Notes under the pieces: generated by a model
The model's database searches: none
What the model saw: only the letters and a program-made list of their open reading frames with translations
Told to the model about the DNA's origin: nothing
In this document: piece by piece, positions 5,486 through 40,030 of the stretch
Position numbering within the stretch: position 1 is the stretch's first letter
Layout: each line of letters opens with the position of its first letter
Position numbers and translations under genes: made by a program
Virus record (IMG/VR): IMGVR_UViG_3300049893_000346
Location: 1-40,038 of that record
DNA: 40,038 nucleotides
Direction: 5' to 3' (one strand)
DNA from: a virus

Positions 5486-5843
5486 TGAATGGGCTAGGGA
5501 GAAGAAAGTTTGTGAACACGCTGAGAAAACTGGTTGGCTCATTCTTAAGTTTACCCCCGATGGACAGCGCGGCTGGCCCGATAGACTATTCATCAACCAG
5601 TATGGAGTCCATGTATATATCGAATTTAAACGGCCAGCGGAGCGCCTTAAACGTCTACAAGCGTATCGCTTGTGGCAGCTACTTTCACGGGGATGCTACG
5701 CCTATGGGCCGATTGATACAGTAGAACACGGAAAGGCAATTCTAGACACCCATGTTGACGAAACAAGAGTGGATTCCCCACGAGTACCAGCTTTCTGCAT
5801 TAAAATTGATGCTGAGTCAGGGGAGCGTGGGGCTATTTCTTGA
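5475..5843 (+). CDS. VRR-NUC domain nuclease
   Basis: A 122-residue protein. I start at GTG 5475, five bases after AGGAGG (5464-5469) and inside the preceding gene. The family pattern is clear: SSEWAREKKVCEHAEKTGW, GWPDRLF (Asp36), YIEFKRP (Glu50, Lys52), then LQAYRLWQLLSRG. This is the compact phage VRR-NUC fold, a PD-(D/E)XK nuclease known to cut branched DNA or to be fused to or paired with SNF2 helicases. Here a SNF2-type gene follows and overlaps it by 92 bases. It probably resolves replication intermediates. Confidence 0.88.
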   Translation: MNSSEWAREKKVCEHAEKTGWLILKFTPDGQRGWPDRLFINQYGVHVYIEFKRPAERLKRLQAYRLWQLLSRGCYAYGPIDTVEHGKAILDTHVDETRVDSPRVPAFCIKIDAESGERGAIS

Positions 5844-7155
5844 TCCAGGACTAGGCAAAACGTCTATATGTCTGTCAGGATTCAAGATATTGAAGCAGAA
5901 GGGTTATGCGCATAAAATGCTGATTATTGCCCCGCTGCGTCCCTGTTACGCAGTCTGGCCTACTGAGATTGAGAAGTGGGAAAACTTTAAGGAACTAACC
6001 TACGTCATTGTTCACGGCCCCAACAAGGAGGCAGCTATCCGTGCCGACGCAGACATCTATATCATCAACCCAGAAGGACTTGTCTGGCTCCTTAACGAAC
6101 AAGATGCTAGATATAAGCTACAGGATTTCGATGTACTTTGTATTGACGAATCAACTAAATTTAAAGATTCTGGCACTAAACGATTTAAGGCACTTAGACC
6201 TCATGTCAAGCGATTTAAAAGACGATGGATACTCACAGGTACGCCAGCGCCTAACGGAATTGCTGACTTGTTTGGACAGATATTCATCCTCGACATGGGC
6301 AGGGCTCTTGGAAAGTACGTCACCCACTTCCGCAACGAATACTTCTACCGAGGGTACAGCAACTACGAATGGATCCTCCGCCCCGGAGCCTTTAGAGAAA
6401 TCACAGATAGAATTGCCCCTTTAGTCTATCAGTTAAATGCTGAGGACTACCTTAAAATGCCGGAACTTATAGAGACTAACATCTATATAGACCTGCCCCC
6501 CAAAGCGAAACAAGTGTATGGGGATATAGAAAATAGTTTCATTGCTATGCTAGACGCGGGGGATATAGTCGCCGCGAATAGCGCGGTCGCCGGGGGTAAG
6601 TGTCGGCAAATAGCGAACGGAGCAGTATATCTTGAGGATGGAACTTACACTATACTTCATGAGGAAAAACTGGATGCGCTTGAAGACTTACTTGAAGAAC
6701 TATCCGGCAAACCTACGCTCGTCCTTTACGAATTTCGTCATGATTTGGAGAGACTGCAACGACGATTTCCGGACGCACAGACAATTAGTTCCGGTACGCC
6801 TATTCAAACCCTTGAGAACATTATCTTACGATTTAACACGGGACAGATACCTGTATTATTGGGCCATCCCGCTTCCATGGGGCATGGCCTTAATCTTCAA
6901 GGCTCGTGCCATCACGTCGTATGGTTTGGTATCCCATGGAACTACGAGCACTACGATCAAGCTATTCGACGAGTATATAGACAAGGTCAAAAGAATGAGC
7001 ACGTTTATATCTACCATATAGTAGCGAGGGATACAAAAGACGAAGACGTAGCCTCCGTCCTTAAACTCAAAGATAAGACTCAAGCGCAAATAAATGAAGC
7101 TATCGCGAGGCACCGGGCTGGTACACTGGCCCCTGTACCAGTAAAGGCGGGGTGA
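5752..7155 (+). CDS. SNF2-type superfamily 2 DNA helicase/translocase
   Basis: A 467-residue ATPase. It has the N-terminal PHEYQLSAL motif, Walker A DPGLGKT (31-37), motif II IDES (131-134), motif III LTGTP (161-165), and near the C-terminus the motif VI run QAIRRVYRQGQ. The HGLNLQGS segment is motif V of SNF2 enzymes. Phage proteins of this class often pair with VRR-NUC nucleases and are thought to remodel or translocate on dsDNA during replication. The ATG at 5752 has only a distant Shine-Dalgarno (AAAGG), so expression probably depends on coupling to the overlapping upstream gene. Confidence 0.92.
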   Translation: MLTKQEWIPHEYQLSALKLMLSQGSVGLFLDPGLGKTSICLSGFKILKQKGYAHKMLIIAPLRPCYAVWPTEIEKWENFKELTYVIVHGPNKEAAIRADADIYIINPEGLVWLLNEQDARYKLQDFDVLCIDESTKFKDSGTKRFKALRPHVKRFKRRWILTGTPAPNGIADLFGQIFILDMGRALGKYVTHFRNEYFYRGYSNYEWILRPGAFREITDRIAPLVYQLNAEDYLKMPELIETNIYIDLPPKAKQVYGDIENSFIAMLDAGDIVAANSAVAGGKCRQIANGAVYLEDGTYTILHEEKLDALEDLLEELSGKPTLVLYEFRHDLERLQRRFPDAQTISSGTPIQTLENIILRFNTGQIPVLLGHPASMGHGLNLQGSCHHVVWFGIPWNYEHYDQAIRRVYRQGQKNEHVYIYHIVARDTKDEDVASVLKLKDKTQAQINEAIARHRAGTLAPVPVKAG

Positions 7156-7364
7156 TGGAAATAGATATGTTGATAACAATGAACGAGGAACAGGAAATAT
7201 GGGTACACATCAAAAGTGAAAGGGCTAGAGCGGAATTTAGGTTGCTAGGACTGCCAGACGAAGAACATAGTATAATGATAGGAATGCCTATCGATCAGTT
7301 TATTGATATGCTTCCTCCTGACATGGTTTACCAGATCGTTGCAGACAAAAAAGATTTGCATTGA
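7155..7364 (+). CDS. Hypothetical acidic protein
   Basis: A 69-residue acidic protein (MEIDMLITMNEEQEIWVHIK at the start). The ATG at 7155 overlaps the helicase stop (TGATG). No motif is recognised; it has alternating hydrophobic beta-like segments and a proline-rich C-terminal turn (DMLPPDMVYQI). It closes the replication operon, with a new promoter right after it. Function unknown. Confidence 0.6.
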   Translation: MEIDMLITMNEEQEIWVHIKSERARAEFRLLGLPDEEHSIMIGMPIDQFIDMLPPDMVYQIVADKKDLH

Positions 7365-7367
7365 GTA

Positions 7368-7396
7368 TTGCAACCGAAAAAGTCTTGTGCTATTTT
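7368..7396 (+). promoter_or_regulatory. Extended -10 promoter of the basic-protein gene
   Basis: -35 TTGCAA (7368-7373), 17-bp spacer ending in TGC, -10 TATTTT (7391-7396). The start would be near 7403, giving a leader of about 50 bases before the ATG at 7454. It has the same TTGCnn / TGC-TAnnnT design as four other promoters in this genome. Confidence 0.75.
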
Positions 7397-7453
7397 ACGC
7401 AAACGCTAGGTAGGGGACTATCTAGCCATAACAAACCACTAGGAGCATCTAAA

Positions 7454-7762
7454 ATGCCTGAAGCAAACGTTCAAAACATTACCCCTCCGTCCAACAAAGA
7501 CGCCAAGGCGCAGAAGGCCCCCAAGGAGCCGAAGCCCAAGAAGGAAGGCGCTGCGAATCGTTCTAGCTTTGCCGCGCTGTACCCGAAGGAAGCTTCGCTG
7601 AAGCTGCTGGTCACTGAGAACCCCAAGAAGGCCGGTAGCAAGTCCTTTGAGCGCTTCCAGCACTACTTCACCAGCAAGACCGTTGGTGAGTTTCTGTCTA
7701 AGGGCGGCACCTATGGCGACATCGCCTACGACATCGCCCGTAAGCGTATCCAGGTCGGGTAA
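7454..7762 (+). CDS. Basic, lysine-rich protein of a conserved phage/bacterial family
   Basis: A 102-residue protein with AGGAG (7441-7445) eight bases before the ATG. Residues 13-32 are a Lys/Ala/Pro tail (KDAKAQKAPKEPKPKKEG). The C-terminal 60 residues have the pattern LLVTENPKKAGSKSFERFQH, then VGEFLSKGG, then DIAYDIARKRI, which I recognise as a domain shared by small phage and proteobacterial proteins of unknown role. The codons are more G+C-rich and uniform than those of its neighbours, and it has its own promoter, so it is likely made in quantity. A DNA-binding or nucleoid-like role is a guess from its charge. Confidence 0.75.
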   Translation: MPEANVQNITPPSNKDAKAQKAPKEPKPKKEGAANRSSFAALYPKEASLKLLVTENPKKAGSKSFERFQHYFTSKTVGEFLSKGGTYGDIAYDIARKRIQVG

Positions 7763-7933
7763 AGGTATGCGAGAGCCGTGCCGGATGGTCTCCGGTTAGA
7801 CCCACGGCAAAGGGACAGGATACCCCCAAGCATGGGCTGAGTGTGGAAACTTAGCCCCCCTCTGGCCCCGGAGGCGAAATGTCCTAGGGCACTTTATCTC
7901 CTTATAGGAGATAAACTTACCAAGAGGAGTACC
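7763..7933 (+). ncRNA. Structured leader ahead of the base-modification genes
   Basis: This is 171 bases with no gene and four nested or serial stems. GCCGTG (7775-7780) pairs with CACGGC (7803-7808) and encloses CCGGA/TCCGG (7781-7785, 7791-7795). GGGCTGAG (7834-7841) pairs with CTTAGCCC (7850-7857). TTTATCTCC (7893-7901) pairs with GGAGATAAA (7907-7915). The last stem lies just before the ribosome site of the glycosyltransferase. It could be a leader with regulatory folding, or a terminator and processing region between two transcripts. No known riboswitch class was recognised. Confidence 0.4.
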
Positions 7934-8761
7934 ATGGAAATATTAATTCTAACCCGTGGCCGTCCTAATCGTCAAACAACCTTTGATCATCTACCTCCAG
8001 AAATACAGAAAAAGGTTATCGTCGTTTCTCAACATGGGGAACCAAAGATAAATCGCGAATGTAGACACGTTAATTCCCCACGAAGCGTTACGGGGATCGC
8101 AGATAAGTGTCAATGGGTTGTAGAGAATTTTGGCCCACGAATCTGTATGCTGGATGATGACCTAGTATTCGCTACTAGGCGCAGGGACGACCCGACTAAA
8201 TTTGTAGAGTCTGGGCGTGGTGAGATTCTCACCATGTTTGCGGACATAAACGCACAACTAGATAATTACGTCCATGTCGGCGTTAGTGGCCGCGAAGGGG
8301 CGAACTACAATACAGATGAATACGACGAGTGCGTCCGCATGACCCGTATCATGGCCTACCGCGCTGACGTACTGGTAGACCAGGATATTCGGTTTGACCG
8401 GGTGCCTGTAATGCAAGACTTTGATGTAACGCTGCAATTATTACGGAAAGGCTACCCCAATCGCGTACTTAACTGGATAGTACATAACCAGAATGGTAGC
8501 AATACGGACGGCGGCTGTTCGCTGATACGTACGGATGAAGTACAGGCGGCAGCGGCGAACAGGCTTGCAGAACTACATCCCGGATTTGTTACTGTAGTCA
8601 AGAAACAAACTAAGAAAGCATGGGGTGGGAAGGAGCGTACTGATGTTAGAATCGGCTGGAAGTCAGCATATAAATCCGCGAGGAATGTTCGTCTATTGGA
8701 TCAACGAGAGGGAGAGCATTCGCAAGAAGAAAGAAGCGGGGCTACCGAAACCGTGGAGTGA
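7934..8761 (+). CDS. TET-associated-type glycosyltransferase (TAGT family), predicted DNA base glycosylation
   Basis: A 275-residue GT-A-like transferase. The ATG at 7934 follows AAGAGGAG. It begins MEILILTRGRPNRQTT, the nucleotide-sugar-binding loop typical of this group. It has CMLDDDL (residues 71-77), the metal-binding DxD-type motif, VMQDFDV (149-155) as the acceptor-side acidic motif, and WIVHNQ with His174. The family was described by sequence analysis as associated with TET/JBP oxygenases and other phage DNA-modification genes, and is predicted to put sugars on hydroxymethylated pyrimidines in DNA. No TET gene is present here; the partner is the hydroxymethylase at 9457. The last 119 bases overlap the next gene in another frame. 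Confidence 0.8.
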   Translation: MEILILTRGRPNRQTTFDHLPPEIQKKVIVVSQHGEPKINRECRHVNSPRSVTGIADKCQWVVENFGPRICMLDDDLVFATRRRDDPTKFVESGRGEILTMFADINAQLDNYVHVGVSGREGANYNTDEYDECVRMTRIMAYRADVLVDQDIRFDRVPVMQDFDVTLQLLRKGYPNRVLNWIVHNQNGSNTDGGCSLIRTDEVQAAAANRLAELHPGFVTVVKKQTKKAWGGKERTDVRIGWKSAYKSARNVRLLDQREGEHSQEERSGATETVE

Positions 8762-9473
8762 CGACCCGGTATTCCAGGAGACATATTTCTGTAACGTGCG
8801 GCGGGAGGATGACCGTGTCACCCGCTGGCTCCGCGCGAATTGGTTGGTGGACGATAAGAACTACGAATTCGCGATGGTAATGGCTCGGTTAATTAATAGA
8901 CCAGAATCACTAAAAAAGATAGGATATCCAGACACTATATTTTGGGATTGTGGTGGGTTAGAAAATGTCCACTACGCCGCTAGAACCCTAAAACCCTTCT
9001 GGGGAAATGCCTACGTTGTAACTACCCACGGCCAGCGTATGGATAAGCTCGAGTACCTTTTAAACGTGCTACAGGCCGCTTCTAAGGTGCTACCAATGGT
9101 AGGCTTGCCCCCCACCTGCCAAGCGTACCACAGCGCATTTAAAACGCTAGAAGGGTTTGGTGACTTCATGGCGGCGCAGGTCGTCGCGGACTTAAAGAAC
9201 ACCTGTTTCCATCCTCTTGCGAAAGCCACAGATTGGTGGGGTTTCGTAGCACCGGGGCCGGGGAGCATACGGGGGATGCAGTGGTATTTCAGCGGCCCCG
9301 TGCGGAACTTTAAGGACGGGATTGACAGAATACGGCACGATATTGCAGGTAAATTAGAGATAAATATCTGCAACCAAGATTTGCAGAATTGTCTGTGTGA
9401 GTTTGATAAGTATATGCGAGTCAAATTCGGTACAGGGCGCAGTAAGAGGAAGTATAATGGCCGTCACAATTAA
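8643..9473 (+). CDS. aGPT-PPlase / 5-hmdU-kinase-helical-domain DNA hypermodification protein
   Basis: A 276-residue protein. The ATG at 8643 has AAGGAG (8630-8635) seven bases upstream, well inside the glycosyltransferase gene. Key segments are YWINERESIRKKKEAGLPKP, then WSDDP, CNVRREDDRVTRW, GFGDFMAAQVVADL, a Pro-Gly-Ser-x-Arg-Gly turn and CLCEFDKYMRV. I recognise this as the helical superfamily containing the alpha-glutamyl/putrescinyl-thymine pyrophosphorylases and the helical part of 5-hmdU DNA kinases. Members act on activated 5-hydroxymethyluracil in phage DNA; characterised ones transfer amino acids. There is no Walker A motif, so it is not itself the kinase. The clade within the superfamily is uncertain. 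Confidence 0.8.
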   Translation: MLESAGSQHINPRGMFVYWINERESIRKKKEAGLPKPWSDDPVFQETYFCNVRREDDRVTRWLRANWLVDDKNYEFAMVMARLINRPESLKKIGYPDTIFWDCGGLENVHYAARTLKPFWGNAYVVTTHGQRMDKLEYLLNVLQAASKVLPMVGLPPTCQAYHSAFKTLEGFGDFMAAQVVADLKNTCFHPLAKATDWWGFVAPGPGSIRGMQWYFSGPVRNFKDGIDRIRHDIAGKLEINICNQDLQNCLCEFDKYMRVKFGTGRSKRKYNGRHN

Positions 9474-10425
9474 TGCCCGAAATGCAGAAGAAGCGTACCA
9501 CGAATGCCTTTGGAAGATAAAGGCTCACGGCAATAAGGAGCGAAGTCGAAATGGGGCAGTTATCACAATTCAGGAGCCAGTAATCCTCAGTATCTACAAC
9601 CCGATTGAACGGGTGCTATTTAATGAGGCTCGAGACGCTAACCCGTTCTTCCATGTTATGGAATTTGTATGGATGCTTGCAGGCTCCGCAGGTGCGGGGT
9701 GGATTTCACAATTCAATAGACGGATGCAAGAGTACGCCGACAAGGGAAGTATCCATGGAGCCTACGGCTGGCGGTGGCGATACGCATTTAACCGAGATCA
9801 AATCGCAATTACCATATCTAAATTACAGGCAAACCCATATGATCGAAAAGCCGTAATCGCGATGTGGGATGCAGACCTGGACTGTGAAACGTGGGCTAAT
9901 GATCATCCCTGCAATACCCATATCTACTTCCGCATCGTTAATGGGAAGTTAAATATGACGGTATGTAACCGCTCTAATGACCTTATATGGGGGATGCTCG
10001 GGGCGAATGTCGTCCATATGACTCTACTCCACGAACTGGTAGCTTTGGAAGTTGGGGCAGAGATAGGGGTCTATACTGTGATGACGAATAACCTCCACAT
10101 ATATGAGCATCACTGGCACTATTTAGAAAGTATAGCCGCCCCCCGATACTACGATTATTCAACTTCTCCCCTACTCACGGGCGGAGAAAGTTACGACGAC
10201 CTAGCCGATGATTGTAGTGATTTTCTTCATGAATCTACTCTTCCCAGCTACCGAACAGAATGGATGGCTAACGTCGCGGGACCAATCTATAGGGCGTGGC
10301 AGAAACGTAAGATGAAAGAACCCTATCTTTCCATATTGGAAGAAATCCATGCTCAGGATTGGCGAGTAGCCTGTCGCGAATGGTGCGAACGTAAAGACCT
10401 AGCATTGAACAAGGGGGCGGTGTAG
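9457..10425 (+). CDS. Thymidylate-synthase-like dUMP hydroxymethylase (5-hmdUMP synthase candidate)
   Basis: A 322-residue TS-fold enzyme. The ATG at 9457 has GAGGA six bases upstream and overlaps the previous gene by 17 bases. The nucleophile is Cys152 in HPCNTHIYF. The phosphate and pyrimidine site is NRSNDLIWGM (Arg172, Ser173, Asp175) and GANVVH, where Asn184 aligns with the TS asparagine that selects uracil; dCMP hydroxymethylases carry Asp there. NNLHIY gives His214 and Tyr216. PCN replaces the PCH usual in cellular TS, as in phage base-hydroxymethylases. The reaction would be dUMP plus methylene-THF to 5-hydroxymethyl-dUMP. A plain thymidylate synthase remains possible, but the two modification genes upstream favour the hydroxymethylase. 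Confidence 0.85.
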   Translation: MAVTINARNAEEAYHECLWKIKAHGNKERSRNGAVITIQEPVILSIYNPIERVLFNEARDANPFFHVMEFVWMLAGSAGAGWISQFNRRMQEYADKGSIHGAYGWRWRYAFNRDQIAITISKLQANPYDRKAVIAMWDADLDCETWANDHPCNTHIYFRIVNGKLNMTVCNRSNDLIWGMLGANVVHMTLLHELVALEVGAEIGVYTVMTNNLHIYEHHWHYLESIAAPRYYDYSTSPLLTGGESYDDLADDCSDFLHESTLPSYRTEWMANVAGPIYRAWQKRKMKEPYLSILEEIHAQDWRVACREWCERKDLALNKGAV

Positions 10426-39787: not shown

Positions 39788-39905
39788 AGGCCCGAGCTGC
39801 TATTCCCAGATTAAACACGAGTTTGGACTAAAGGGGTCTATGGAAAGTGTCTATACTCAATTCTGCGAATTTATTGAAAAAGAACGTGGAAGACTTGGTT
39901 ATTGA
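39681..39905 (+). CDS. Conserved small phage protein
   Basis: A 74-residue helical protein from ATG 39681, with AAGGAG nine bases upstream. LDKPEQIYLYRLSVLKAGLK, then LEKMGLKRGKGPSCYSQIKH and EFGLKGSM is a pattern I know from small early proteins of many tailed phages, with no assigned function. It overlaps the preceding gene by 107 bases in another frame. The stop is at the contig junction; the next gene of the operon is at 58. Confidence 0.75.
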   Translation: MNETIVLDKPEQIYLYRLSVLKAGLKLEKMGLKRGKGPSCYSQIKHEFGLKGSMESVYTQFCEFIEKERGRLGY

Positions 39906-40030
39906 TTTACTGATAGCTACGGTCTTTCTGTATGGGTTATTCTCAATTGTAGGAGATATATATGAAAATCGAAAAGGGCGTGCCGATTCCACCTGTGAAC
40001 AGCCAGTTCCTGAGCTGGCCGTTCGGCCAG
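39905..40030. repeat. Right copy of 126-bp terminal direct repeat
   Basis: Identical to bases 1-126; it joins the contig ends and places the gene at 58 directly downstream of the gene ending at 39905. It supports a genome unit of about 39,904 bp. Confidence 0.9.

Follow-up and report, generated by a model that had tools for sequence, protein, structure and literature searches.

In phages, thymine hypermodification has been elucidated for routes beginning with phosphorylation of 5-hydroxymethyluracil (5-hmU). Pseudomonas phage M6 makes 5-aminoethyl-dU (PMC6449724). Its proteins are split in current Pfam among PF18724 (ADDT; gp51), PF18748 (P-loop 5-hmdU kinase; gp54) and PF18723 (HMUDK_hel; gp55, formerly called aGPT-PPlase clade 2). 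Sugar transfer is known for 5-hydroxymethylcytosine (5-hmC), where the T6-type TAGT adds glucose onto glucosyl-5hmC in DNA; this enzyme, the T6 beta-glucosyl-HMC-alpha-glucosyltransferase, has a predicted GT-A fold (PMC13216743). The same work lists a TAGT without an alpha- or beta-glucosyltransferase in 288 of 753 phage genomes and leaves the role of these solitary TAGTs open. A sugar on a modified T is not new chemistry, since the DNA of Bacillus phage SP-15 contains glucosylated 5-dihydroxypentyluracil (PMC5977210) and base J of kinetoplastids is glucosyl-5-hmU (PMC4150806). The published note on Brevibacterium phage LuckyBarnes assigns it a predicted dCMP hydroxymethylase (PMC6588365).

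Here we describe a phage locus in which a TAGT, an HMUDK_hel protein and a thymidylate synthase (TS)-fold enzyme are encoded by overlapping genes. What is new is that HMUDK_hel, across 121 phage loci, pairs with a kinase or a sugar transferase, never with both. The pattern suggests that thymine modification has a sugar branch, still largely uncharacterised, which runs parallel to the known route and in which the hydroxymethylase and the helical protein are retained and the kinase is replaced. Phage glycosyl-5-hmU produced by a TS and a TAGT did not come up in a literature search that did not extend to Iyer 2013 or Lee 2018/2022; one of these papers may already have noted HMUDK_hel beside glycosyltransferases.

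A three-gene block in an essentially complete phage genome

The stretch of DNA analysed (the window) is 40,038 nt long and is classed as linear in IMG/VR. Both contig ends carry a 126-bp direct repeat, beyond which lies an 8-base fold-back tail. On this evidence the record looks like a whole genome, circular or terminally redundant, with a unit of about 39.9 kb. Because the repeat marks the phage genome as essentially complete, gene absences in the window are informative. Megablast of the first 20 kb against phages gave no match. The relevant features are:

1-126, identical in sequence to 39905-40030, no strand: direct repeat, overlap of the contig ends
7934-8761, plus strand: TAGT-family GT-A glycosyltransferase (PF20691), predicted to attach a sugar to 5-hydroxymethyluracil in DNA
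8643-9473, plus strand: HMUDK_hel protein (PF18723), all-helical and without a P-loop, predicted to assist the sugar transferase by recognising DNA or the base
9454-10425, plus strand: predicted TS-fold dUMP 5-hydroxymethylase (Pfam Thymidylat_synt, PF00303, and active-site residues)

The three ORFs are arranged head-to-tail between 7934 and 10425. In the Pfam search the ORF spans 7934-8761 (TAGT), 8625-9473 (HMUDK_hel) and 9397-10425 (TS fold) all scored above the curated cut-offs; the likely starts are at 7934, 8643 and 9454. TAGT matched PF20691 with E 5.6e-11 (43.2 bits, cut-off 27.5), HMUDK_hel matched PF18723 with E 8.5e-31 (107.8 bits, cut-off 25, profile positions 6-277 of 281) and the TS-fold protein matched PF00303 with E 7e-24. 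PHROG assignments agreed (842 for TAGT, E 2e-43; 5131 for the TS fold, E 1e-92). These searches confirmed the three families that an earlier note had named from the letters alone; none of the three proteins fell into an unrelated family.

Shine-Dalgarno sequences precede the ATG at 7934 (AGAGGAG) and, by about 8 bases, the ATG at 8643 (AAGGAG). Because of the latter, the 119-nt overlap between TAGT and HMUDK_hel given in the note holds. The conserved HMUDK_hel domain begins at 8685, leaving an overlap of at least 77 nt whichever start is used, and overlaps of 74-86 nt between the TAGT stop and the HMUDK_hel domain recur in four relatives (L011, L013, L014 and L019). The second overlap, put at 17 nt in the note, was found to be 20 nt counting the stop codon (9454-9473). 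A chance origin of the block is untenable, as the identical set is found in dozens of phage contigs.

Exchange of kinase and sugar transferase beside HMUDK_hel

Scanning viral contigs with HMUDK_hel initially yielded 69 loci. Of 50 loci put through whole-record Pfam searches, 47 had a TS, 16 a TAGT, 13 the kinase and 6 ADDT; TAGT occurred with the kinase in none of the 50 and with ADDT in none. Profiles derived from the first-scan families were applied to a second, larger scan, resulting in 121 non-redundant HMUDK_hel loci. TAGT is present in 60 of them and another glycosyltransferase or candidate in 18 more, for a total of 78 of which the TAGT count is the firm part because the other label is weakly based; 33 loci have the kinase and 10 have neither. 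The weak family matches behind that label are to Glyco_transf_4 (7e-5) and Glycos_transf_1 (1.3e-4), one member each, and a second group (GTX) has no glycosyltransferase family match at all. Kinase and any glycosyltransferase are found together in 0 of the 121 loci (Fisher p 4e-21, relatedness ignored). ADDT is present in 14 loci, 13 of them with the kinase and none with a glycosyltransferase.

Placed on the HMUDK_hel tree, the kinase label must have changed at least 10 times along well-supported branches. In the 10 independent contrasts, kinase and glycosyltransferase never changed in the same direction and changed in opposite directions 8.3 times on average (sign test p ~0.008). With 62 rows, a first test by independent contrasts had too little power (p 0.125), which led to the larger sample. 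TAGT usually takes the kinase's slot directly upstream of HMUDK_hel, a position occupied by TAGT in 46 of 61 cases and by the kinase in 24 of 33. The exchange is apparent among close relatives of the window protein: the order is kinase/HMUDK_hel/TS in L090, L093 and L097, TAGT/HMUDK_hel/TS in L091 and GT4-like/HMUDK_hel/TS in L009 and L043.

In the complete circular genome ctUhy936, a TAGT and a TS of the dUMP type are the only parts present. With kinase, ADDT and HMUDK_hel all missing there, the simplest reading of this genome is that its TAGT acts on 5-hmU directly, and HMUDK_hel would be dispensable in some phages.

Further gene combinations were observed in the survey. Two loci (L065 and L070) each contain two tandem HMUDK_hel ORFs, with no kinase or glycosyltransferase detected. 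Glycosyltransferase-like and sulfotransferase-like ORFs accompany HMUDK_hel and TS in kinase-free loci of L052 (9-3019), L053 (10867-12711), L040 (10783-12532), L063 (4735-6479) and L076 (11467-13588); the sulfotransferase-like ORFs match PF13469 with a best E of 9.5e-6, and those shown fall below the cut-off. In L052 an APS kinase (E 1.9e-12) is found as well, and a PIG-L de-N-acetylase scores above its cut-off. Gene content of this type hints at a sulfated, perhaps amino-sugar, DNA modification in these loci. Radical-SAM/SPASM proteins adjoin glycosyltransferase/HMUDK_hel/TS in L032 (7479-8531), L053 (12680-13660), L061 (8200-9108), L159, L160, L161 and L112, where further tailoring of the sugar or base is possible. 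Finally, a family of about 315 residues (FIVNGPxAFC...QNDY) lies beside HMUDK_hel in kinase-free loci (L040, 11588-12532, and relatives); it gave no meaningful Pfam or PDB match and is a candidate for a new glycosyltransferase family.

Predicted roles of the three proteins

The structural model of HMUDK_hel is all-helical (pLDDT 90.7). That the protein is the kinase itself was rejected, a P-loop being present in 0 of 156 ORFs of the family. The motif LCEFDKYxR is invariant among 56 HMUDK_hel sequences, and so are a number of acidic residues, D183 of the aligned domain among them. In BFVD, the model matches 5-hmdU DNA kinase helical-domain proteins of RSL1 and PhiW-14. The partial-length match to the 637-aa SP10 protein F8WQ30, named 5-hmdU DNA kinase, suggests, only indirectly, that HMUDK_hel may be fused to a kinase there. 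Of the model's top 24 PDB matches, 23, among them all of ranks 1-16, are helix-hairpin-helix (HhH) DNA glycosylases, mostly in DNA complexes; these matches are weak and none is significant by itself (best E 0.086, probability 0.84, TM mostly 0.3-0.46). Sequence-profile searches with HMUDK_hel gave no match to the HhH DNA-glycosylase superfamily, and PDB sequence searches with M6 gp55 and with the HMUDK_hel profile gave no meaningful hit. The modelled fold is suggestive of a DNA-binding, base-flipping ancestry.

HMUDK_hel occurs with phosphoryl and glycosyl transferases predicted for the same hydroxyl; its task should therefore be common to both partners, most simply base access. It appears to be a common element that works with exchangeable modifying enzymes. 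Tentatively, and with somewhat more doubt than belief, we go further and picture HMUDK_hel not as part of the kinase but as an adaptor of general use that arose from a base-flipping DNA-glycosylase fold and would present 5-hmU in duplex DNA to the P-loop kinase, TAGT, GT4-like transferases and then perhaps sulfotransferases. In that case the most frequent outcome among phages with this adaptor would be glycosylated 5-hmU DNA, as yet undescribed (78 of 121 sampled loci, against 33 with the kinase). The resemblance to HhH glycosylases and the invariant acidic residues would also fit a catalyst, such as a base-excision or second modification enzyme. We regard this as unlikely: a glycosylase acting on the phage's own modified base would harm the phage, and one family serves kinase and glycosyltransferase systems alike. 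Such a role would alter only the part played by HMUDK_hel and is compatible with glycosylated 5-hmU.

The AlphaFold2 model of the window TAGT (pLDDT 93.1) has as its best PDB matches GT-A nucleotide-sugar transferases (Foldseek, E 3.5e-6, probability 1.0), including TarP, B4GALNT1, RmlT and GalNAc-Ts. A DDD motif, the acidic metal/nucleotide-sugar motif, is invariant among 25 TAGT relatives and present in 82 of 85 ORFs. These relatives were gathered via HMUDK_hel neighbourhoods; a single-sequence scan of viral contigs with the window TAGT gave no match, and a PDB sequence search with it gave no meaningful one. No Tet_JBP dioxygenase, the context from which the TAGT family takes its name, was matched anywhere in the genome. 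This is no bar to TAGT membership: assignment to PF20691 is by sequence, and the TAGT of T6-type phages likewise pairs with a TS-fold hydroxymethylase. Family, fold and intact motif lead to the prediction that the window TAGT puts a sugar on the hydroxymethyl group of 5-hmU in DNA. Its action there as first transferase stays a prediction since the sole TAGT assigned to DNA, the T6 type, acts on already glucosylated 5-hmC.

A GT-A fold alone does not specify the acceptor, and two of the best structural matches, TarP and RmlT, decorate teichoic acids. The TAGT could accordingly modify a protein or host surface polymer, with the TS-fold enzyme giving only dTMP or free 5-hmU and HMUDK_hel acting separately. 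The overlapping genes, the gene order kept across many phages and the replacement of TAGT by the 5-hmdU kinase in one slot argue against this arrangement, which we consider distinctly unlikely.

The residues of the TS-fold protein bear on which base is modified. At the positions of E. coli ThyA C146-H147 it has Cys-Asn (PCN), with Asn at N177 and Met at W80. The same combination is present in SPO1 gp29, annotated as a dUMP hydroxymethylase, and M6 gp58 agrees. T4 dCMP hydroxymethylase requires Asp179 for cytosine (PMC6400193); the window protein lacks this Asp and has Asn in its place. A sequence by itself may fail to distinguish a synthase from a hydroxymethylase (PMC5977210); with these residues as an indication, we predict a dUMP 5-hydroxymethylase. 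The Cys-Asn/Asn type is shared by 109 of 113 TS proteins of HMUDK_hel loci. Two others, in L064 (8884-9954) and L069 (8802-9806), have a cytosine-type look (Cys-Thr/Asp, as in a dCMP hydroxymethylase) and stand beside TAGT and HMUDK_hel, so the TAGT and HMUDK_hel pairing is not strictly uracil-specific; they suggest that HMUDK_hel can serve 5-hmC glycosylation too.

Glycosylated 5-hmC in the window phage, with a dCMP hydroxymethylase supplying a TAGT as proposed for LuckyBarnes (PMC6588365), would accord with the substrate of the T6-type TAGT (PMC13216743) and with the residues of L064 and L069. We hold it to be improbable given the Asn in place of Asp179 (PMC6400193), the PCN and Met shared with SPO1 gp29 and the predominance of uracil-type TS proteins in HMUDK_hel loci. 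In LuckyBarnes itself (L078, an isolate) a single block at 5601-9616 encodes a TS, two TAGTs and HMUDK_hel, the last being gp38, annotated only as hypothetical; the TS of this phage has uracil-type residues, unlike the published prediction.

Searches of the window with PF18748 and PF18724 gave no match at E 10, and our own kinase and ADDT profiles gave none on the circularised genome. Relatives of radical-SAM proteins that neighbour such genes were absent from the genome, as were TET/JBP and a T4-type alpha-glucosyltransferase. With both ADDT and 5-hmdU kinase absent, an amino-acid-type modification was rejected. In a genome that is essentially complete, these absences lead us to predict a glycosylated base and not an amino-acylated one. 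The earlier note had expected a hypermodified thymine, probably glycosylated or amino-acylated. A 5-hmU-type base elaborated by a sugar transferase stands; the amino-acylated form does not, and neither does the amino-acid-type transferase said to be encoded as well, for that enzyme is PF18724 (ADDT), a family distinct from HMUDK_hel. The note's view of an amino-acid- or amine-type thymine (M6, ViI or PhiW-14 style) that is glycosylated as well can draw on HMUDK_hel being part of the M6-type machinery and on a fold that HMUDK_hel and ADDT may share (weak match in BFVD, E 1.4e-3; E 0.001 at probability 20% in another comparison), and is very improbable in a genome without 5-hmdU kinase, ADDT or radical-SAM relatives, the more so as kinase and ADDT never accompany a glycosyltransferase in the 121 loci.

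A proposed kinase-free sugar route and its relation to known systems

We think it probable that the three genes form a kinase-free, sugar-based thymine hypermodification pathway. The TS-fold enzyme would make 5-hydroxymethyl-dUMP, which host or phage kinases would convert to the triphosphate and the phage polymerase would incorporate into DNA. As its family, fold and motif suggest, TAGT would then use a nucleotide-sugar as donor and glycosylate the hydroxymethyl group in DNA, yielding glycosyl-5-hydroxymethyluracil, a relative of base J. HMUDK_hel may aid TAGT in reaching or recognising the modified base in duplex DNA, as partner exchange and the glycosylase-like fold would suggest; in M6-type phages it would do the same beside the P-loop 5-hmdU kinase. 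The product presumably protects the genome against restriction and other DNA-targeting defences.

This reading provides a functional hypothesis for HMUDK_hel and suggests a possible acceptor for part of the solitary TAGTs recorded in phage genomes (PMC13216743). If it is true, J-like bases would be widespread in bacterial viruses, with relevance to restriction, CRISPR, glycosylase defences and DNA-labelling enzymes. LuckyBarnes being an isolated phage, the prediction of a sugar route is testable.

With the M6 pathway (kinase gp54, HMUDK_hel gp55, ADDT gp51 and TS gp58) the window shares a dUMP-type TS and HMUDK_hel encoded by neighbouring genes; it differs in that no kinase, ADDT, PLP enzyme or radical-SAM enzyme was found and in having TAGT in the kinase slot. 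LuckyBarnes gp38-gp41 likewise combine TS, TAGT and HMUDK_hel in a block with no kinase or ADDT, with two TAGTs against one in the window. T-even 5-hmC glucosylation, represented by the T6 TAGT, has in common a TS-fold hydroxymethylase and a DNA sugar transferase of PF20691 and GT-A fold, whereas in the window the hydroxymethylase residues are uracil-type, no T4-type alpha-glucosyltransferase is found and an HMUDK_hel partner is present. SP-15 shares a phage modified thymine bearing a sugar (glucose) and differs in its dihydroxypentyl side chain, flavin-type (Thy1) synthases and teichoic-acid-like 10-gene cluster. Base J belongs to the predicted product class, a sugar on 5-hydroxymethyluracil. 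There, T in DNA is oxidised by JBP dioxygenases and a different transferase is used, whereas in the window, which has no TET/JBP, 5-hmU would come from the TS-fold enzyme.
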